DNA of 42,302 nucleotides, taken from IMG/VR virus record IMGVR_UViG_3300049203_000060, positions 1-42,302 of that record; one strand, written 5' to 3'. Position 1 is the stretch's first letter; each line of letters starts with the position of its first letter. The notes below the pieces were generated by a model. That model was given only the letters and a program-made list of their open reading frames with translations. It did no database searches and was not told the DNA's origin. Source of the stretch: a virus. A program made the position numbers and the translations under genes. This document shows positions 11,173 through 31,741 of this stretch, piece after piece.

Positions 11173-11877
11173 GTGTTGAAGATAGATGCCCGTGGCAAAC
11201 GGGTTCTCATTATCTCCGATCTCCATATCCCTTACTCAGTTCGGGGCTACCTCCGATTCCTAAAAAATCTCAAGCGCACATTCAAGCCAGACATCGTGAT
11301 CAACATTGGCGACGAGGTTGATTACCACGACATGTCCATGCACGATTCTGATAAAGATCTCGACTCCGCTGGGAAAGAGCTGGATAAGTCCGTCCTAGAG
11401 ATACAAAACGGCCTCCATAAGCTGTTTCCCAAGATGTACCTACTAGAGAGTAACCACGGGAGCATGACGCTCAGAAGGGCCAAAAAACATGGAATTCCAA
11501 TACGTGTACTCCGACCGCTGCCCGAATTGTACGGGACCCCTAAATGGACGTGGCATGATGAAATCCTCCTTCAAACGGAACAAGGGCCTGTGTATCTTTG
11601 TCACGGTAAATCTGGAACCTACGGAACACTTGTTAAAGAAATGGGAGTTTCGTGCGTTCAGGGACACTTTCATGGAAAGTTCGAGATTACCCATCATGCA
11701 AGCGTATTCGGTTCACGCTATAATATGTTCGTCGGGTGCCTCATAGATCAGAAGTCTCTCGCTATGGCGTATGGAAAGAACCATGTGAAGAAGCCCATCC
11801 TTGGATGCGGTGGGATTGAAGCTGGCGGAAATCCAGTACTATTTTCGTACCGGGATTTTAAAAGGACCAGAAGATGA
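11173..11877 (+). CDS. calcineurin-like metallophosphoesterase
   Basis: A 234-residue protein with the family's metal-binding motifs in order: S-D-L-H (about 14-17), G-D-E-V-D (about 45-49), S-N-H-G (about 91-94), L-C-H-G-K (about 140) and G-H-F-H-G near residue 160. These bind two metals and hydrolyse phosphoesters. Phage members act as DNA-end, nucleotide or protein phosphatases, and the substrate cannot be read here. The start is GTG with AGGGA about 10 bases upstream, just after a GTAC-type element. It overlaps the next gene (ATGA). Confidence 0.85.
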   Translation: MLKIDARGKRVLIISDLHIPYSVRGYLRFLKNLKRTFKPDIVINIGDEVDYHDMSMHDSDKDLDSAGKELDKSVLEIQNGLHKLFPKMYLLESNHGSMTLRRAKKHGIPIRVLRPLPELYGTPKWTWHDEILLQTEQGPVYLCHGKSGTYGTLVKEMGVSCVQGHFHGKFEITHHASVFGSRYNMFVGCLIDQKSLAMAYGKNHVKKPILGCGGIEAGGNPVLFSYRDFKRTRR

Positions 11878-16499: not shown

Positions 16500-17942
16500 C
16501 TATCTGTAGGTCAATATCTTTTCAGCGATGTTTTCTTTGTTCTTTAGGGCCTCGATCGCTTGAACTTCAATAGTGTCATTCATTGTTAGATTTATCTTGG
16601 TGATGTTCTCGTGAACCTGACTTCCACCTCGATAGTTCCTTCCGTCAGACTGTATTTCTTCTTCAAGGCTGAAATTTCTGGAGAACACAACAGAGAGAGA
16701 AGAGGCTGTGAGATTAACGCCAATACCTCCGGCTTTCCTGTTAGCGATAATCGCTCGAACGTCTCCGTCATTTTGAAAATAATCAATGGACTCTTGCTTT
16801 TCTTTGGCATCTTGTTCTCCTGTGAGAAAGACATGTTTGATTTTCAGTTTATCCAGTCTGGCACCGATAGCACGATAATTTGCTTTGTACGAACACCAGA
16901 TAATGACCTTCTTGTCTTCGTTATCCTCAAGGATTTTCTCAAGGGCATCCAGTTTGGGATTGTCTTCGAAAATGTGTTCTTCTCCGACTTCCGGTGTTGC
17001 AAAGCCGCTCGCAATCTGCATAAGCCGTAGGGCCTTGGTGAGTGCAAGCTGGGCAACAACCGCAGCGGGTTTATCGCTCCCGGTGTCAACGAAGGCAATG
17101 AAATCCCTTCGCATTTGCTCGTAGGCTTTCTTTTGTTTTGGTCCCATCTCGAGAAGAATCGTCTTCTCGATGTAAGGAGGAAGGTCCATACATTCACTTT
17201 TCACCACCCTGATTGAGTTTCCTTTAATACCTGTAGTCAGTTCACCAAAGAGGTCTTCACGTGGCTCCCACTTAGGGAAGTAGTTGGGCTTACCCGCCCA
17301 TCGAGAGTTTGCATCAGCGAAGTACCGATTCCTGAAATTGAAAAAGTTGTTCCCAAAGGATTTTCCCTGGTCAATGAATCGCCATTGCATGAATAGGTCC
17401 ATGGGGGTGTTGAGAATAGCGGATCCCGTGAGACCCAGACGGTAGCGAGCCCCCTGACCAATATCCACGATGGCCTTCGCACGCTTGGATTTGTACGACT
17501 TAATCCTGTGTAGCTCGTCCGAGATAATAAGATCAGGTTTCCATTTTGTAACAGCTTTAACGAATTCGGGGTTATCGAATGACTCATAATTGGTGATAGC
17601 GACACCTTCGGCCGCCAGTCTTGCGAGTTCATTCATCACCTCTTTACGTTTCTTTGCTTCTGATAGTGGGTAGCAGATGATCTGCTCTTCTGCTGGCGAA
17701 TACTTCTTTATCTCGTTCTTCCAATTTGGGATGACTACAGAAGGGCCTATCACAAGAACGCGCTTTACGCCCTTGTAGTTGATCAGGTAACGCATGATCG
17801 TAATAGCCTCTGCTGTTTTACCCACTCCTACGTCAGCAAGGAGCGCATAACCAGTGAGGTCCTTATCTACGAACTCGCGGAACGCGTCTATCTGCCATTG
17901 GTAAGGAGTGAAATTTAGACTTACTTCTGTTATTTTCGTCAT
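16500..17942 (-). CDS. SNF2-like superfamily 2 DNA helicase
   Basis: 480 residues with SF2 motifs in order: Y-Q-W-Q-I-D-A-F (Q motif), A-D-V-G-V-G-K-T (Walker A, about 36-43), D-E-L-H (Walker B, about 140-143), L-T-G-S-A-I (motif III), and near the C-terminus a motif VI-like Q-S-D-G-R-N-Y-R (about 434-441). The length and the S-D-E-L-H-R-I-K-S type box match the SNF2-like helicases found in podo- and siphoviruses, thought to act in replication or recombination. It starts 15 bases after the stop of its neighbour, with AAGAGG enclosed in a GATA...TATC dyad. Confidence 0.9.
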   Translation of the reverse strand: MTKITEVSLNFTPYQWQIDAFREFVDKDLTGYALLADVGVGKTAEAITIMRYLINYKGVKRVLVIGPSVVIPNWKNEIKKYSPAEEQIICYPLSEAKKRKEVMNELARLAAEGVAITNYESFDNPEFVKAVTKWKPDLIISDELHRIKSYKSKRAKAIVDIGQGARYRLGLTGSAILNTPMDLFMQWRFIDQGKSFGNNFFNFRNRYFADANSRWAGKPNYFPKWEPREDLFGELTTGIKGNSIRVVKSECMDLPPYIEKTILLEMGPKQKKAYEQMRRDFIAFVDTGSDKPAAVVAQLALTKALRLMQIASGFATPEVGEEHIFEDNPKLDALEKILEDNEDKKVIIWCSYKANYRAIGARLDKLKIKHVFLTGEQDAKEKQESIDYFQNDGDVRAIIANRKAGGIGVNLTASSLSVVFSRNFSLEEEIQSDGRNYRGGSQVHENITKINLTMNDTIEVQAIEALKNKENIAEKILTYR

Positions 17943-23957: not shown

Positions 23958-26303
23958 GTGATTCAAATTCTTGGATATAGAGAATACTTTAACAAGACCA
24001 AACAAATTTGGGACGTGAAGCACCAGTTATTCCCTGTGACAGCGGAGAGTGTTGCTGATCTGTTTCAGAACCTCGAGAAATACGTCAATCAGATTCCAGA
24101 TGAGGAGCGTTTCAACGTCCACTACACGGTCGCTGATTGCTATGAAGCTGCGAGACTTTTCAAGGCACAGGATACAATTCCATTCGACTTAGATGACATC
24201 GACACTTCTCGCCTTGTTGACTACATAACAGTAGTTGAAGAGGTTACTGGTTGCTCGCATGAGAAAATGGGAATTACTTTTTCTGGGCATGGACTTCACT
24301 TCCTGATTAAGCAAGCTCACGTGATTTCTTCTGAGGAAGAACTTAAGTCCCTTCAACCCGCGTACAAAAATCTTTGCTCACGTCTTGATCTTCGTCTGAA
24401 GGATGCTGGTCTTCCGGGTAAAACAGATAAGGGTGTGTTCCGTCCTGCTGGTACTCTTCGTCTTCCGGGGACTCAGAATCGTCCCTTCTATAAGCGTGAC
24501 GAGAATCACCCACATAAACTTTTCACCCCTGTTCAAGCATACGCGATCAACAAGAACCTGGAGATCCAAGAGCTCAACCTGGATCTTGGCGGGGTTTCCG
24601 AGAGAGAAAACGTCACATCTCAGGAGCTTAGACAGTTTCCGAGACCTGATACGGAATTCGTACTAGAAAATTGTGAGTTCCTGAAATGGAACTTCAAGTC
24701 TCCAAATGAAGTCACCGAACCTGAATGGTATGCAGCTCTCTCGATCGTAGGACACCTCGAGAATGGTCGCGATCTCGCCCATCAGATGTCAAAAGGACAC
24801 AACTCATACGACTACACCACGACCGACAACAAGCTTACGCAAGCTATGGCGGCATCTGGTCCTCGTACATGTAGTAACGTCGATAATCTTTCTGATAAAT
24901 GCCGTACCTGTAAGTTCAACGGTATGGTCACTTCACCTATACTACTTCGCGGTCCTAATTATATTGGGACTATGGATACAGGCTTCTGGCATGTCGGAGT
25001 CGATGCCAAAGGAAAGCTCAAACCATCGAGACCCGCCTACGAAGACCTAAGACGCTTTTTCGAAAAGACTCACAAGTACATCTCTCTTCCATCCGGAAGC
25101 ATTTACATCTGGAAAGAAACTCATTGGTCTGAATTTGATACTCTCTTTATTCGTGCCTTCGCTCAGGATAACTTCAATCCGAAACCTACGACTGATCACG
25201 TGAATGAATTCGTGAATCTTGTTAAACGTACGAATGTGAGACCAGAAAATTTCTTCGATGATTCCACTATCGGACGTATCAATCTCGCCAATGGCGTACT
25301 GAAGCTCGACTCAATGGAGCTTGAACCTCACGACCCCAAGTATGGTTTCCGTTACAAACTCGATCACGGTTACGACCCGAAGGCGACTTGTCCTCGCTTT
25401 GATCTCTTCATGAATGAAATCACTCTCGGAAGAACCGCCCTTGTTGACGTTCTCATGGAATACGCAGCGTACTCCTTCTCGGGTATGCCTTACATATATC
25501 AAAAAGCACTTATGATGAGTGGAGAAGGAGCAAATGGAAAATCTACGTTTATTGCCGTCCTCAAGAAACTTGCTGGTACCGATTCGTATTCAAGTCTCAT
25601 GCTCAATGAACTCGACCAAGAGTACAAGCGAGCTTATATGGTCGGGAAACTATTCAACGTGGCGGAAGAAACTCCAGTCAAGTCCTTGGGCGATAGTTCA
25701 TGGTTTAAGGTATTGTCGGCGGGAGGCTCGTATATGGCGCGTGAGATTTACAAAAAGCCTGTAAATGTTGTGTCCAATAGAACGAAACTCATCATGGCAT
25801 GTAACGAACTGCCCGACATGACAGACTTCAGTGAAGGTTTCATTCGTCGTCTTCTTATCGTCCCTTTCGATGCTAAATTCTCAGCCGATAAAGGCAATGT
25901 TGACCCTTACATCGAAGAGAAACTTATGGCAGAACTGCCTGGGATTTTCAATCGCGTAGTCGAAGCCTATCACAGACTTATCGCCCAAAAAGGTTTCACG
26001 AAATCAGCAATCGTTGATGCCACTATCACCGAGTACAAGGACGCTCAGAACACAGTCTTCAACTGGTTCAATGAAGCCGTGGAAAAGTACACCGGAGGAC
26101 TTGTCCCCGCTGGCAATCTCTACAAGAGTTATGTCGAATGGTGCAAACCTATGGCCCTTAGACCCGTTACCACCACCAAATTTGGATACGAGATGGCAAG
26201 ACTTACCGGCAAAAAGAGTTATGCCAAAAAAGTAGATGGGAAATCCCTTCGCGTCTACGATGACATACGCATGATTCTGAATGTGGGTGATTTCACCGCC
26301 TAA
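23958..26303 (+). CDS. primase-SF3 helicase fusion (D5/P4-like)
   Basis: 781 residues from GTG 23958, AAAGGA 10 bases upstream. The N-terminal 200 residues look like an archaeo-eukaryotic primase: I-P-F-D-L-D-D-I-D (about 74-82) as the metal-binding acidic motif, F-S-G-H-G-L-H-F (about 108-115) and L-R-L-P-G-T-Q-N (about 168-175). A Cys cluster follows (C-S-N-V-D-N-L-S-D-K-C-R-T-C, about 310-323). The C-terminal half is an SF3 helicase: G-E-G-A-N-G-K-S-T (Walker A, about 520), L-F-N-V-A-E-E (Walker B) and K-L-I-M-A-C-N-E-L-P (sensor). It would prime and unwind DNA for the family A polymerase. It stands alone on the plus strand with a terminator directly behind it. Confidence 0.9.
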   Translation: MIQILGYREYFNKTKQIWDVKHQLFPVTAESVADLFQNLEKYVNQIPDEERFNVHYTVADCYEAARLFKAQDTIPFDLDDIDTSRLVDYITVVEEVTGCSHEKMGITFSGHGLHFLIKQAHVISSEEELKSLQPAYKNLCSRLDLRLKDAGLPGKTDKGVFRPAGTLRLPGTQNRPFYKRDENHPHKLFTPVQAYAINKNLEIQELNLDLGGVSERENVTSQELRQFPRPDTEFVLENCEFLKWNFKSPNEVTEPEWYAALSIVGHLENGRDLAHQMSKGHNSYDYTTTDNKLTQAMAASGPRTCSNVDNLSDKCRTCKFNGMVTSPILLRGPNYIGTMDTGFWHVGVDAKGKLKPSRPAYEDLRRFFEKTHKYISLPSGSIYIWKETHWSEFDTLFIRAFAQDNFNPKPTTDHVNEFVNLVKRTNVRPENFFDDSTIGRINLANGVLKLDSMELEPHDPKYGFRYKLDHGYDPKATCPRFDLFMNEITLGRTALVDVLMEYAAYSFSGMPYIYQKALMMSGEGANGKSTFIAVLKKLAGTDSYSSLMLNELDQEYKRAYMVGKLFNVAEETPVKSLGDSSWFKVLSAGGSYMAREIYKKPVNVVSNRTKLIMACNELPDMTDFSEGFIRRLLIVPFDAKFSADKGNVDPYIEEKLMAELPGIFNRVVEAYHRLIAQKGFTKSAIVDATITEYKDAQNTVFNWFNEAVEKYTGGLVPAGNLYKSYVEWCKPMALRPVTTTKFGYEMARLTGKKSYAKKVDGKSLRVYDDIRMILNVGDFTA

Positions 26304-26724: not shown

Positions 26725-26958
26725 TCAAGAAAGACGGCGTTTCAGTTCTCTAATTTGGTCACGGATGTCTTTAAGAATGGGTTTCAATGTCCGTTTACTC
26801 ACCCGATCATGCGCTGGTGACAATAAATCGGACATTCGGTCAATGTTCTCGGTTACCTCATCCAATAACCATGGAATCGAACCAGTATTGAGTCGGTTCC
26901 CCTCATCTGAGACAACCGCATGAAAGGTTGCCAGCTCTTTTTTCTGGTCTTCATTCAT
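26725..26958 (-). CDS. small helical protein, partner of the recombinase
   Basis: 77 residues, helical, with a basic C-terminus (R-E-L-K-R-R-L-S). It overlaps the recombinase stop by 4 bases, so the two are made together. Unrecognised; last gene of the island. It could be an accessory factor of the recombinase, by context only. Confidence 0.6.
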   Translation of the reverse strand: MNEDQKKELATFHAVVSDEGNRLNTGSIPWLLDEVTENIDRMSDLLSPAHDRVSKRTLKPILKDIRDQIRELKRRLS

Positions 26959-27545
26959 ACAGTTTCCTTTTTCACGATACGTCCAATGGTAGCGCGGGAA
27001 ACCTGAGGGTGAACCGAATGGATTTCATCAATGGTCATTTTCTGGTCCCTTAAATAGATAATGTCCTTAACCGTTTCAATGGATATCTCAGAAGGTCGAC
27101 CACAATGGATACCCTTACTTTGTGCCAGCTCAATACCCGCCTTCGTTCTCATCCGGATTGTCTCACGTTCAAATTCAGCCAATGCGGCAAATATCGTAAA
27201 AATCATTTTACCCATTGGAGTAGTCGTGTCGATCGCTTCTTTAATGCTGATAAAGTCCACGTTCAATACTTTCAATTCATCTAGGATGGAAATCAAGTGA
27301 AGAGAAGAGCGTCCAATGCGATCAAATTTCCACGCGACAATCGCCTGAAACTCACCAGCGCGAACCAATTTCATCATTTCGTTAAATTCAGGACGCGAGA
27401 CTTTCGCTCCACTCTCACCATGATCAACGAAAAAAACCGGGGCAGTGCCCGGCCATCGAAAATCACAGAATTTTTTGATGTCTTCTATTTGCATGTCAGT
27501 CTTTTGATCTCGAGTACTGACCCTAACATATGCCGCGATCTTCAT
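26955..27545 (-). CDS. serine recombinase (resolvase/invertase family)
   Basis: 196 residues, the usual size of small resolvases. A-Y-V-R-V-S-T-R-D-Q (residues 5-14) holds the catalytic Ser10, with Arg8 beside it. W-K-F-D-R-I-G-R-S (about 72-80) carries the second Arg pair. The long E helix follows (E-F-E-R-E-T-I-R-M-R-T), then G-R-P-S and a C-terminal helix-turn-helix (S-R-A-T-I-G-R-I-V). Such enzymes cut and rejoin DNA at short dyad sites, to resolve, invert or (rarely in this size class) insert. It overlaps the amidotransferase gene and may have moved the island. Confidence 0.9.
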   Translation of the reverse strand: MKIAAYVRVSTRDQKTDMQIEDIKKFCDFRWPGTAPVFFVDHGESGAKVSRPEFNEMMKLVRAGEFQAIVAWKFDRIGRSSLHLISILDELKVLNVDFISIKEAIDTTTPMGKMIFTIFAALAEFERETIRMRTKAGIELAQSKGIHCGRPSEISIETVKDIIYLRDQKMTIDEIHSVHPQVSRATIGRIVKKETV

Positions 27546-28387
27546 ACTTTCTCCTCATCCTCATCATAGAGTTTGCTGGTAAACGAGTCCAAACAGTCGT
27601 ACTGGTTATAAACTGCGCAGCAATCGAGACATTCAAAAGTTATTGTATTGTAGCCAATTTGTTCTGTGCGATCGCTACCACATGAAGGACAAAAATCCAT
27701 TTCCATTAATGCATCAACGTCAAACTCCTCGTCCTTATATTCATAATCGTCAAAAACTTCTTTCATGCTTTTTCCTGATTTCGGGTCCCATGTTAGTACT
27801 TTTCCTTTTCGTGGTTCTGACCATAGCGATGAAGAACGATAAGTGTTAATTGAATATGTCTGAGAATAGAAGCATCCTGCAATCTCGGTCCAATTACCCA
27901 TAAGAGATACTTTCTCACCGGTAACGATCGCCAGGCGATCACCGCCTAACACTTTCTTCATTTCCTTTTCATCTGGATTTTTCAATGCCAGCCACTTAGA
28001 GAAAATAGCGGTGTCACTGTAACCGTGTGACGGTGACATAGGATTGAACATCACCCCATTATGGATGATCGCCTTATCGGTCACATGATAAAGAGCTTTC
28101 AATTCGTTATTCTTTTTAGAGACAGGAAAAGGATGAGTCATACCGGGCACAGTGTTCCCACTAGTCGTGTACCGTAGATGAAAGACCACATCTAAATAGC
28201 GTAACTCTTCACTAAATTTTCCGATAAAGTCAGTGTACTCTGAAAGGGACATGAAACCCTTATGAATTTCAACCGAACCATTCATCCTGACGGCCAGGCC
28301 CGCACCGTCCTTATTTCCCGTCCACGCTTGTTTGATTTCAGTAAACGGAATTTTCTCACCAGCGGGTTTATAAATAGCTAGACACAT
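27542..28387 (-). CDS. class II glutamine amidotransferase-like protein with C-terminal zinc ribbon
   Basis: 281 residues starting M-C-L-A-I-Y, with Cys2 as the N-terminal nucleophile after Met removal. Y-T-T-S-G (about 73-77), I-H-N-G-V (about 108-112) and the S-D-T-A-I-F segment are typical of the Ntn-hydrolase fold of class II amidotransferases, which release ammonia from glutamine. The last 60 residues carry C-P-S-C-G and C-L-D-C-C, a zinc ribbon, then an acidic tail. It follows the amidoligase by 2 bases with GAGGAG before the ATG and overlaps the recombinase, forming one operon. It probably supplies or removes an amide group in the reaction catalysed by the amidoligase. Confidence 0.75.
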   Translation of the reverse strand: MCLAIYKPAGEKIPFTEIKQAWTGNKDGAGLAVRMNGSVEIHKGFMSLSEYTDFIGKFSEELRYLDVVFHLRYTTSGNTVPGMTHPFPVSKKNNELKALYHVTDKAIIHNGVMFNPMSPSHGYSDTAIFSKWLALKNPDEKEMKKVLGGDRLAIVTGEKVSLMGNWTEIAGCFYSQTYSINTYRSSSLWSEPRKGKVLTWDPKSGKSMKEVFDDYEYKDEEFDVDALMEMDFCPSCGSDRTEQIGYNTITFECLDCCAVYNQYDCLDSFTSKLYDEDEEKV

Positions 28388-28389
28388 AA

Positions 28390-29730
28390 TTAAATCTCCT
28401 CATTGTTATCGTCAGGGGTTAAATTTTTCGTTCTTATGAATGTTACCAAATTGTCGTAATGATCTTGATTCTTATAGACGAAACGTGAAAATTTTCGCCA
28501 GATTTTCTTAGAGAATGTTTCCTGTGCATGTATCAGTCTGATCGTTTCAGCCTCATTCTCCGGTACATTGAAACAGTCTTTTTCATATGTGAACACATAC
28601 GCAGCATGCACCAGCTCCATTGATGCCATGAAAGTTTCATACTTTAATGTCCCCTTAAACATACGAAATTCAACCGTGTGATCATTCTGCCAATTTAAAG
28701 CGGAATACCGATCATATGAATGATATTTGAGAATATCACGGTCCACTTTCTTGAATTTCGCGTAATTATTTTCTGATCTTCGTGCTAGTTTCTCAAACTC
28801 TGGTTTACAAAAAGCGATCAACATACCTAACCGGACTTTATGTCCCTCACTCATGTTGTCACGGCAAACATGAAAGTGAAGACCACACGTTTTTGTGTCG
28901 TGGGAACGACAACCGGCATTGGATAAAGCTTTAAATAGCTCCTTGTATGTCTCTTTCTTATGTACCCCTAGTGTAGCGGGATGAGAGACAATCTCGAAAC
29001 CATTCGTCAATGAGGCATCTGATTTACAGTATAACCATTCTTCATGAGGGGCAGTTAATTCAGCTATTTCGCCAGGTTTTTTGCCGGGACATTCTACTTC
29101 CAGCTCAAAACCAATATAAGGGTTTTTCATCAACTGTTTCCCACGAAACTTAGGCGCGGGCTTGAAACTATAAGATTTAATTCTTGAAGATGAGGAGCTG
29201 AAAGGAGATGGATAATCGTCATCCTCACCGCTATTACATGCATAACAGTAACCGTCTTCACTGTAGTGATCAGTGGACATGGTTTCTGAGCAACCCTCAC
29301 AATGAAAGTAATCACCGTTATCGTAACATTCCGGGCAAATTGTCTTAACATGGTAGCCACGTTGATTATGGATTGATGTGCCCTCATCATTTTCGTAATA
29401 CTCGCTACAATCTTCACAGCAAAAGCAGTTATCATCCGACCATCGCTGACTCACGGTAATATAGGCGAAATTGTTACGACGATTATTTACCCGTACCATA
29501 ACAGTATTAGTCTCATCTTCGTGATAATATCCAGTCATTTTTTCGCACCAATAGTAATGATCGGACTGGCACTCATCACAGACATGTAGTGTGTTACCAC
29601 GTTTCATCACCACGTTTTGTTCCGTTACCGCAAATTTTTCACCGCATTCTTCACATTCGAAAGTACCGTGATCAGTGTCGTCACTTGATTCCGTTTCAAT
29701 TTCAATTTCTGTCTCTGTTTCGGTAGGCAT
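28390..29730 (-). CDS. amidoligase with Cys-rich N-terminal region
   Basis: 446 residues. Residues 24-170 contain about seven C-x2-C pairs (C-E-E-C-G, C-D-E-C, C-E-D-C, C-P-E-C, C-E-G-C, C-Y-A-C), so several zinc ribbons. A Ser-rich linker follows. The rest matches the Amidoligase_2 (COOH-NH2 ligase) pattern: N-P-Y-I-G-F-E-L-E-V-E (about 203), D-A-S-L-T-N-G-F-E-I-V-S-H-P, C-G-L-H-F-H-V and V-E-F-R-M-F-K-G-T-L. This family joins carboxyl and amine groups with ATP and often pairs with amidotransferases, as described for predicted phage peptide- or wall-modifying systems. GGAGAT precedes the ATG. A strong terminator lies just upstream. Confidence 0.8.
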   Translation of the reverse strand: MPTETETEIEIETESSDDTDHGTFECEECGEKFAVTEQNVVMKRGNTLHVCDECQSDHYYWCEKMTGYYHEDETNTVMVRVNNRRNNFAYITVSQRWSDDNCFCCEDCSEYYENDEGTSIHNQRGYHVKTICPECYDNGDYFHCEGCSETMSTDHYSEDGYCYACNSGEDDDYPSPFSSSSSRIKSYSFKPAPKFRGKQLMKNPYIGFELEVECPGKKPGEIAELTAPHEEWLYCKSDASLTNGFEIVSHPATLGVHKKETYKELFKALSNAGCRSHDTKTCGLHFHVCRDNMSEGHKVRLGMLIAFCKPEFEKLARRSENNYAKFKKVDRDILKYHSYDRYSALNWQNDHTVEFRMFKGTLKYETFMASMELVHAAYVFTYEKDCFNVPENEAETIRLIHAQETFSKKIWRKFSRFVYKNQDHYDNLVTFIRTKNLTPDDNNEEI

Positions 29731-29751
29731 TGGATGATCTCCAAATAAAAA

Positions 29752-29771
29752 GGGGACCGAGCGTGGTCCCC
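29752..29771 (-). terminator. terminator between secreted-protein and amidoligase genes
   Basis: On the minus strand GGGGACC-ACGCTC-GGTCCCC followed by TTTTTATTT. It ends the transcript of the secreted-protein gene, so the amidoligase operon needs read-through or its own promoter, which I cannot place. Confidence 0.8.
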
Positions 29772-29790
29772 ATGAGTTAGTGATTCTGAT

Positions 29791-30045
29791 TTACTTTTTT
29801 AATTTCGCTATTCTCTTATTGTATGCCAGTGTTTCAAGCTGAATTAATTCATCCGTTGAGAATGATGATCTCTTCACCGTGCATACGCTCGCCAATGCCG
29901 CTAACTGCTTCTTAGAGAAAGTGACATCGCCTATTTTAGCTGATGATGAATCACTCTTTTTTGATTTCAATGTGATCTCACATGTTGAACCAAAAGAGTT
30001 AGATGCCAGGCCAATAAGAACGAGAACCAGAGTTAAATTTTTCAT
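29791..30045 (-). CDS. small secreted (periplasmic) protein
   Basis: 84 residues with AAAGGA 7 bases before the ATG. Signal peptide M-K-N-L-T-L-V-L-V-L-I-G-L-A-S-N-S-F-G, probably cut after S-F-G. The mature part of about 65 residues has two Cys (S-T-C-E, V-C-T-V), probably a disulphide, and is Ser/Lys-rich. Unrecognised. Superinfection exclusion or host-envelope modification is a guess. It lies between the second secreted gene and a terminator. Confidence 0.65.
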   Translation of the reverse strand: MKNLTLVLVLIGLASNSFGSTCEITLKSKKSDSSSAKIGDVTFSKKQLAALASVCTVKRSSFSTDELIQLETLAYNKRIAKLKK

Positions 30046-30102
30046 GAGACAGTCCTTTTAATTGGTCACGAAATTGTGAGCCAAATTGATGATAGTTATT
30101 GG

Positions 30103-30450
30103 TTAAAGTTTTTCGTTTGATGATGAGTCAAAACAATGATCAGTGGTGAAGTCTTCTGATTTAGGGAAATCACATCTCATCAATCCTTTCTTACCATTCA
30201 GTTTTGTATAGTTGATGTAGAAAGTGATCTCAACCACATTGTCTTTATTGTCAGTTTCAATTCCCCACGACTGAGTTTCACCGAGAGAATCAATCATTGA
30301 TGATTCACCAATTGTATCGGAGAGGGTTGATTCAATATCATTCACCATTGATTTAATTTTCGCCTCATCGTAGCGAGTGAAATCATTTGGTGATTTTGCC
30401 AGTGTGGTGAATGAGAAAGAGGCGAGAATTAAAAGAGTGATAAGTTTCAT
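30103..30450 (-). CDS. small secreted (periplasmic) protein
   Basis: AAAGGA 8 bases before ATG 30450 fixes this start; an upstream in-frame ATG at 30552 would hide the signal peptide. The 115 residues begin M-K-L-I-T-L-L-I-L-A-S-F-S-F-T-T-L-A-K, cut probably after L-A. The mature part is acidic and Ser-rich with two Cys near the C-terminus (R-C-D-F, D-H-C-F). Unrecognised. First gene of the island operon, next to the iteron cluster. Confidence 0.65.
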   Translation of the reverse strand: MKLITLLILASFSFTTLAKSPNDFTRYDEAKIKSMVNDIESTLSDTIGESSMIDSLGETQSWGIETDNKDNVVEITFYINYTKLNGKKGLMRCDFPKSEDFTTDHCFDSSSNEKL

Positions 30451-30560
30451 AATGTCTAGTCCTTTATAACCGACGAAATTGTACGGTTGAGTCAATTTAA
30501 GACAAAAACGTCGAAAAAGCGACGGAAAAGGTGCAGCATGTAAGGTTTTCATAGAAAAGT

Positions 30561-30880
30561 GGTAACAGGCTCTGTAACCTAAAATAGATGAATGATTTCA
30601 AGCTGTTAGGTTAAAAAGGTAACAGGTTACAGGTTTTTCTTACATAAGAAGGGGACTATTTATAGTAAATCGACGTTTTCGGTGCATCAATTGGTAAAAT
30701 CGGGCAAAAAAAGCACGAAAAAAAGGTCACCTCAATATACGCTTTCTTGTAACCTGTTACCAAATGATATCAACAGGTTAAGACTCATCAACCCGAAACC
30801 GTCTCAAAAACAACCTGTACCTGTTACCATGAGGTGCATTAGACTCATCACGCAAGGTAACAGGTTAGAGGTAACAGGTT
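30561..30880. repeat. iteron-like cluster of GGTAACAGG repeats
   Basis: Core GGTAACAGG (or CCTGTTACC) at 30561, 30618, 30753, 30820, 30856 and 30870; GGTAACAGGTTAC at 30618 and GTAACCTGTTACC at 30749 make near-palindromes GTAAC-NN-GTTAC. The last two copies are 14 bases apart in direct order. Partial copies at 30573, 30771 and 26548. AGACTCATCA is also repeated (30781, 30841). Confidence 0.75.
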
Positions 30881-31256: not shown

Positions 31257-31487
31257 ATGGAAGAACAGATTGATAGAGTAGAAGAGCTTCTGAAAGACCT
31301 GGAGTACGAGATAAAACTTTTAAAAGGCAAGATCTTTCTTTTGAAAAACGGTCTTAACTACTACGCCACTGAGAAAAACTGGTTAAACGAGATAGATGGG
31401 CGTGAGCACGGTAAATTCGCAAGGGCAGTACAGGCAGAAGTTGAGAGCTTGACTCGTATTGGACTACGTACTAACATTCCAACATGA
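31257..31487 (+). CDS. small coiled-coil protein
   Basis: 76 residues, AAAGGA upstream. Residues 1-35 form a Glu/Leu/Lys coiled coil (E-E-L-L-K-D-L-E-Y-E-I-K-L-L-K). Overlaps the GroES-like gene by 4 bases. Unrecognised; a partner of the co-chaperonin or an early protein. Confidence 0.6.
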   Translation: MEEQIDRVEELLKDLEYEIKLLKGKIFLLKNGLNYYATEKNWLNEIDGREHGKFARAVQAEVESLTRIGLRTNIPT

Positions 31488-31741
31488 TCACAATTCTTAA
31501 AGACAGGGTACTCATCGCGAGGCTTGAACCTACGAACACCACCCCAACTGGTATCATCCTGCCTGACAGTCAGAAGAAGATTCCAGATCGTGGGACTGTT
31601 ATAACTACTGGTCCACAATGCCATCCAATGCTCCAAGCTGATTCAACAGTTATCTTTCAAAAATTCGCAGGAACAGAAATCGAACATGAAGGGAAGAAAT
31701 ATCTCATCATGCGCGAAGACGAGATTCTCGCGATTCTATAA
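31484..31741 (+). CDS. GroES-like co-chaperonin
   Basis: 85 residues with the Cpn10 pattern: L-K-D-R-V-L-I-A-R (about 5-13), a short mobile-loop equivalent T-T-P-T-G-I-I-L-P-D-S (about 19-29), R-G-T-V-I-T-T-G, V-I-F-Q-K-F-A-G-T-E-I (about 56-66) and Y-L-I-M-R-E-D-E-I-L-A-I-L at the end. It is about 10 residues shorter than bacterial GroES. Phage versions (for example T4 gp31) redirect host GroEL to fold the capsid protein. The gene stands directly before the terminase and head genes. It would cap the host GroEL; no phage GroEL is seen. Confidence 0.85.
   Translation: MITILKDRVLIARLEPTNTTPTGIILPDSQKKIPDRGTVITTGPQCHPMLQADSTVIFQKFAGTEIEHEGKKYLIMREDEILAIL

Follow-up and report, generated by a model that had tools for sequence, protein, structure and literature searches.

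The locus studied here raises the question of what an amidoligase, a glutamine amidotransferase and a serine recombinase encoded together in a phage genome would do, and whether their assembly is as unusual as a preliminary description of this DNA had suggested. The window analyzed, a complete 42,302-bp virus record, carries another representative of an already known and very common phage cassette made up of the amidoligase and the amidotransferase; the attachment of a recombinase to this cassette is recurrent but uncommon. The explanation we prefer, and consider fairly probable, is that the two genes form an ammonia-fed, amide-forming cassette that modifies a cytosolic host substrate (a wall precursor or a protein) and is carried by mobile elements next to a recombinase.

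The island and its phage backbone

The window has a podovirus backbone of the T7 type, with the portal, tail tubes, internal virion protein and T7-like DNA polymerase all found; the portal and tail tubes bear out the earlier podovirus assignment. Six open reading frames lie on the minus strand between positions 26,725 and 30,450, each where the preliminary description had placed it. In order of transcription, they encode two signal-peptide proteins of 115 aa (30103–30450) and 84 aa (29791–30045), an amidoligase of 446 aa (28390–29730), an amidotransferase of 281 aa (27542–28387), a serine recombinase of 196 aa (26955–27545), and a protein of 77 aa (26725–26958). The tight coupling described for the last four genes is evident in their junctions: 2 nt separate the ligase from the amidotransferase gene, and 4-nt ATGA overlaps join the amidotransferase to the recombinase and the recombinase to the 77-aa gene, the last overlap pointing to translational coupling. 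No library searched yielded a significant family match to the 77-aa protein, and no homologue of it was present in the fetched loci. No relative of the window at the DNA level was present in the phage collection searched, and single-protein scans of IMG/VR with the ligase, the amidotransferase or the recombinase returned no close relative.

The two secreted proteins had been proposed to belong to the same assembly, a proposal that we reject. A strong intrinsic terminator on the minus strand (29771–29752; GGGGACC-ACGCTC-GGTCCCC followed by five T) parts them from the last four genes, and no homologue of either was found in the loci searched; they are therefore judged to lie outside the cassette, as a separate transcription unit, and the ligase gene has its own ribosome site. 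To judge from the sequence, the 115-aa protein most likely starts at 30450, as had been implied, where an AAGGA-type ribosome site serves the start codon; the longest possible start, at 30552, is disfavored on the same grounds. This protein had no convincing family match in the libraries searched, and the one match of the 84-aa protein, to BhsA over its signal-peptide end, was weak and below threshold. A reading of the island as a defense system was also discarded, as a PADLOC search gave no meaningful match and a weak match of the 115-aa protein to Cas12a is not credible.

The island is AT-rich (GC content 0.408; whole window, 0.461), and among the genes measured GC3 is lowest in the ligase gene (0.383). 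In none of four relatives that share the backbone order and have a portal identity of ∼51% (L256, L257, and L262, which include the helicase and primase, and L272, which includes a portion of the primase) could a ligase, amidotransferase or recombinase be detected in the interval from primase to terminase. Given this composition and the backbone relatives that are without it, the island is accessory, and it was probably acquired, as the preliminary description had surmised. The same description had the island flanked by noncoding DNA; such DNA is indeed present on the right, but it belongs to the backbone. GGTAACAGG is repeated there six times (30,561–30,878), with copies in either orientation, arranged around an AT-rich gap and absent from the rest of the window; a four-copy cluster was seen in 0 of 30 random windows. 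Two of the relatives without the island (L272:5295-5553 and L256:6322-6694) have other short repeats (five copies of GTGTGAACA and four of TGGACAGG) in the same relative place, upstream of the terminase. The cluster lies 3 kb from the recombinase gene and its motif forms a dyad (GTAAC-AG-GTTAC), but an origin is likelier than recombinase crossover sites, since relatives that have no recombinase carry comparable clusters of other motifs there. It is probably an iteron origin of replication that serves the D5-type primase-helicase of this T7-like podovirus (23958–26303; D5/DUF5906 with a C-terminal winged helix of the RFX/Pox_D5 type), comparable to the origins of P4 (PMC4234260) and of Gram-negative PICIs (PMC6092414).

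Some further features of the backbone were recorded. In the relatives the primase-helicase gene adjoins the helicase gene; in the window the two are far apart and on opposite strands. A GroES-type co-chaperonin (Cpn10, 5.8e-22) is encoded at 31484–31741, just before the terminase genes, and the window also carries genes for a metallophosphoesterase (11173–11877) and an SNF2-type helicase (16500–17942); members of the metallophosphoesterase family are also found repeatedly close to amidoligase pairs on IMG/VR contigs.

The amidoligase–amidotransferase pair

Profile and structure comparisons both upheld the identification of the 446-aa protein as an amidoligase. The Pfam model Amidoligase_2 (PF12224) matches it at 2.7e-8 (34.4 bits, with a cut-off of 22), and an AlphaFold model based on an alignment of 38 sequences (mean pLDDT 80.8) has as its best solved Foldseek match YbdK (1r8g; E 1.7e-5, probability 1.0), with gamma-glutamylmethylamide synthetase and type III glutamine synthetase next. 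Among viral models the best match, aligned over nearly the full length, is a phage protein named amidoligase, and another match is named a LIM-domain protein. In the predicted model the core (residues ∼205–435) has a glutamine-synthetase (GS)/YbdK fold with conserved active-site residues, G207, E209, E211, D238, S240, E246, H285, H287, N346, E354, and R356 being invariant in the 38 ligase sequences. ATP-dependent formation of an amide bond is its predicted activity.

The amidotransferase begins with Met-Cys, and C2, R72, H109-N110-G111, and D125 are invariant in six relatives. Although its single sequence had no Pfam amidotransferase match at an E value of 0.1, the profile of its family finds PurF and GlmS chains (best 5e-9). 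We thus take it to be a glutamine amidotransferase of class II (Ntn) whose N-terminal Cys is intact. The zinc ribbon ascribed to it earlier is also borne out: two CxxC pairs (CPSC and CLDC, at 233 and 253) are found in its C-terminus, and at least two such pairs are present in about half of its relatives (114 of 231 among the matches listed).

The count of about seven C-x2-C pairs given for the amidoligase is likewise accurate. Seven CxxC motifs, one of them in an overlapping CFCC, fall within residues 1–165, compared with a mean of 1.04 and a maximum of 5 in 1000 shuffles. The region (∼24–166) resembles LIM domains or zinc ribbons: the Pfam LIM model matches three of five relatives (best 1.1e-5) while leaving the window ligase itself unmatched, and the zinc part of the relatives' ligases is matched by LIM or double-zinc-ribbon (DZR) models. 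One zinc site is altered in the window, where M65, S94, and W97 stand at positions that are Cys in 37 of the 38 sequences, in a stretch where the alignment is uncertain; the absence of these three cysteines counts against our preferred explanation.

To determine how widely this arrangement occurs, we turned to IMG/VR, where one query alone gave at least 565 confirmed ligase relatives. A ligase alignment of eight rows proved too diverse as a search query; the ligase alignments used for seeding yielded, among the matches listed, 69 distinct loci, 67 with a complete ligase start and 64 with room downstream. At least four CxxC pairs precede the ligase core, in LIM-like fashion, in 61 of the 67 distinct complete relatives, and an amidotransferase follows directly on the same strand in 60 of the 64 distinct loci with room, both counts among the matches listed. 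Of 23 loci obtained by seeding in reverse with the amidotransferase, 21 contained a ligase, and no other neighbor of the pair recurs comparably (69 of 75, versus 28 of 75 for the next). The window has the same arrangement, a ligase with a CxxC-rich N-terminus and an amidotransferase directly after it. With such proportions of zinc-rich ligases and adjoining amidotransferases, the zinc-rich pair is the norm of its family and a very common phage gene pair, and the survey removes the zinc-rich N-terminus as a novelty, although it had been singled out as unusual. The linkage of the two genes, in turn, holds in both search directions, which supports the proposal that they act as a modification pair. 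The pair has already been published in several phages, namely Marvin, LUZ24-like phages (PMC3890496), PSA-HP1 (PMC5498523), and MEP401 (PMC10580990).

The serine recombinase and the Clostridial elements

The identification of a serine recombinase with a small coupled gene is well founded, with matches to Pfam Resolvase (8e-43) and the PHROG DNA invertase family (2.5e-56). It is a small enzyme of the resolvase/invertase type with Ser10 and a DRxxRS motif; S10 is invariant, R8, R76, and R79 are conserved, and there is a weak C-terminal match to HTH_7 (0.012). Its presence in the operon had been considered unusual, and it is indeed rarer than the pair, but it is not unique: the linkage is seen again, chiefly in mobile elements from bacteria of the gut. 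Among the IMG/VR matches listed, a small serine recombinase follows the pair in only three distinct loci, all on contigs of Clostridial element type. When 84,980 species genomes were scanned with a ligase alignment headed by the window protein, 80 loci came up, nearly all from Clostridia and mostly from Ruminococcus, and the order ligase, amidotransferase, small serine recombinase on one strand was found in 26 of the 66 loci with room, or 8 of 26 once near-copies were set aside. The usual Clostridial layout starts with a gene that we take to be DUF960-like, after the Pfam family name, followed by the ligase, the amidotransferase, and finally a recombination gene, for either a small serine recombinase or a tyrosine integrase; in an alternative layout a large serine recombinase lies farther down. 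In one Clostridial locus, four copies of GTCCCAAAA lie within ∼100 bp just upstream of the triad serine recombinase (L182:7284-7380), possibly as recombinase sites or as a terminator pair. We found no report of a linkage between recombinase and pair in the literature searched, a search that left Iyer et al. 2009 outside.

The recombinases of these triads fall into at least two clades, and that of the window is in neither. The window ligase has a long branch and is placed with phage sequences, a placement that lacks firm support, and an AU test did not reject a grouping with the Clostridial ligases (P = 0.224), so descent of the window triad from a Clostridial triad is neither backed nor rejected by the trees and this test. 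We read the cassette as repeatedly located at the recombination end of mobile elements. The recombinase itself stands outside the chemistry, as a mobile-element recombinase that has the cassette as a recurrent neighbor, and its presence is probably a trace of the way in which the cassette was mobilized or is resolved.

Proposed function and comparison with known systems

Under the preferred explanation, the class II amidotransferase would hydrolyze glutamine with its N-terminal Cys and pass the released ammonia to the amidoligase, which would then amidate a carboxylate group on a host substrate in the cytosol by ATP-driven chemistry of the GS type. Docking of the partner or the substrate may fall to the zinc-bearing parts, LIM-like in the ligase and a zinc ribbon in the amidotransferase. 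As the donated group, ammonia is the first candidate in view of the class II amidotransferase, with another amine as an alternative; ammonia-fed amidation is the most economical reading because a glutaminase-type partner is strictly tied to a GS-fold ligase. The likeliest substrates would be a peptidoglycan precursor, with a wall change acting against competing phages or on lysis timing, or a protein. The wall has been proposed as the target, for superinfection exclusion (PMC10580990, PMC5498523), and in the literature found this hypothesis comes with no biochemistry or experiment and no identified substrate. The carriers include integrative elements as well as phages, and a role in the wall or in superinfection fits them no better than a protein target does. 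This is a very common phage cassette with candidate substrates only, and its broad range of carriers, with the pair beside recombination genes of Clostridial elements too, constrains what it may do; the window adds one compact, well-defined podovirus example.

A different use of the same enzymes would be protein tagging, in which the ligase adds an amino acid or peptide to a host or phage protein chosen by the LIM-like region and the amidotransferase trims or recycles the donor. LIM-type domains usually bind proteins, the zinc part is kept in nearly all phage relatives, and the ligase core is nearest to carboxylate-amine ligases of the YbdK type, which use amino acids. We nevertheless regard tagging as rather unlikely, given that the constant partner is a glutamine-hydrolyzing Ntn enzyme, normally one that releases ammonia, and that no small tag protein recurs beside the pair. 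The zinc region could also bind DNA or RNA, with the pair amidating a modified base; zinc ribbons often bind nucleic acid and phages hypermodify their DNA, yet genes for base-modification partners do not recur beside the pair and the best Pfam match of the relatives is LIM, which makes such a role very improbable.

The recombinase allows two further readings, of which one makes it a neighbor by chance, picked up independently and landed behind a common cassette. Its position outside the Clostridial triad clades and the long branch of the window ligase agree with this, and small serine recombinases occur fairly commonly in phages, with matches in 788 of 50,697 records; the two overlapping ATGA junctions, the same gene order in distant elements and the outcome of the AU test speak against it, and we consider it possible but somewhat unlikely. 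The other would have the recombinase control the cassette, for example by promoter inversion, so that the three genes form a phase-variable system. Their shared order in distinct Clostridial loci and the window, with recombinases of at least two clades, and the overlap with the amidotransferase gene are in its favor, but in other Clostridial loci tyrosine or large serine integrases occupy the slot instead, an indication of mobility, no long inverted repeat pair was found around the window operon, and only the window has this order among the distinct phage-type loci surveyed (among the matches listed). Such control is decidedly improbable. A broader version, in which a functional or co-mobile triad was assembled several times independently in phages and Clostridial integrative elements, the recombinase either transferring the cassette from one element type to another or acting as its on-off switch, seems quite unlikely to us.

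Among known systems, gp105–gp106 of the mycobacteriophage Marvin and their relatives, annotated as glutamine amidotransferase domain proteins, are likewise an adjacent pair in the same order and strand, with an N-terminal CxxC ligase and a C-terminal zinc-ribbon amidotransferase; they differ in a ligase identity of only ∼29% and in having no recombinase behind the pair. The modules of Ruminococcus and other Clostridia elements (L060, L100, L127, L187, and others) share a ligase with six to seven CxxC, the amidotransferase and a small serine recombinase on the same strand, whereas no DUF960-like gene was recognized in the window, and their recombinases are of other clades and often replaced by a tyrosine integrase. 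A peptidoglycan modification cassette was reportedly described by Iyer et al. 2009, as cited by others. The cassettes of this kind in LUZ24-, phiEco32-, and PSA-HP1-like podoviruses (PMC3890496, PMC5498523) also combine Amidoligase_2 with a class II amidotransferase, but have in addition an ATP-grasp enzyme, a PF14395 ligase and a gamma-glutamyl cyclotransferase; since no ATP-grasp, PF14395 ligase or AIG2/cyclotransferase gene was recognized by Pfam among the window proteins scanned, the window represents the minimal pair. The lack of these genes counts to some degree against our preferred explanation. The Methylophilales phage MEP401 (PMC10580990) also has a zinc-containing ligase, whose gene overlaps that of the amidotransferase, with a longer N-terminal region and no recombinase directly behind the pair. 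By analogy of action, the pair resembles MurT–GatD of Staphylococcus aureus (PMC3267633), a ligase and a glutamine amidotransferase that amidate a carboxylate from a small operon, although these belong to another family with unrelated folds, a Mur ligase and a CobB/CobQ-like amidotransferase.
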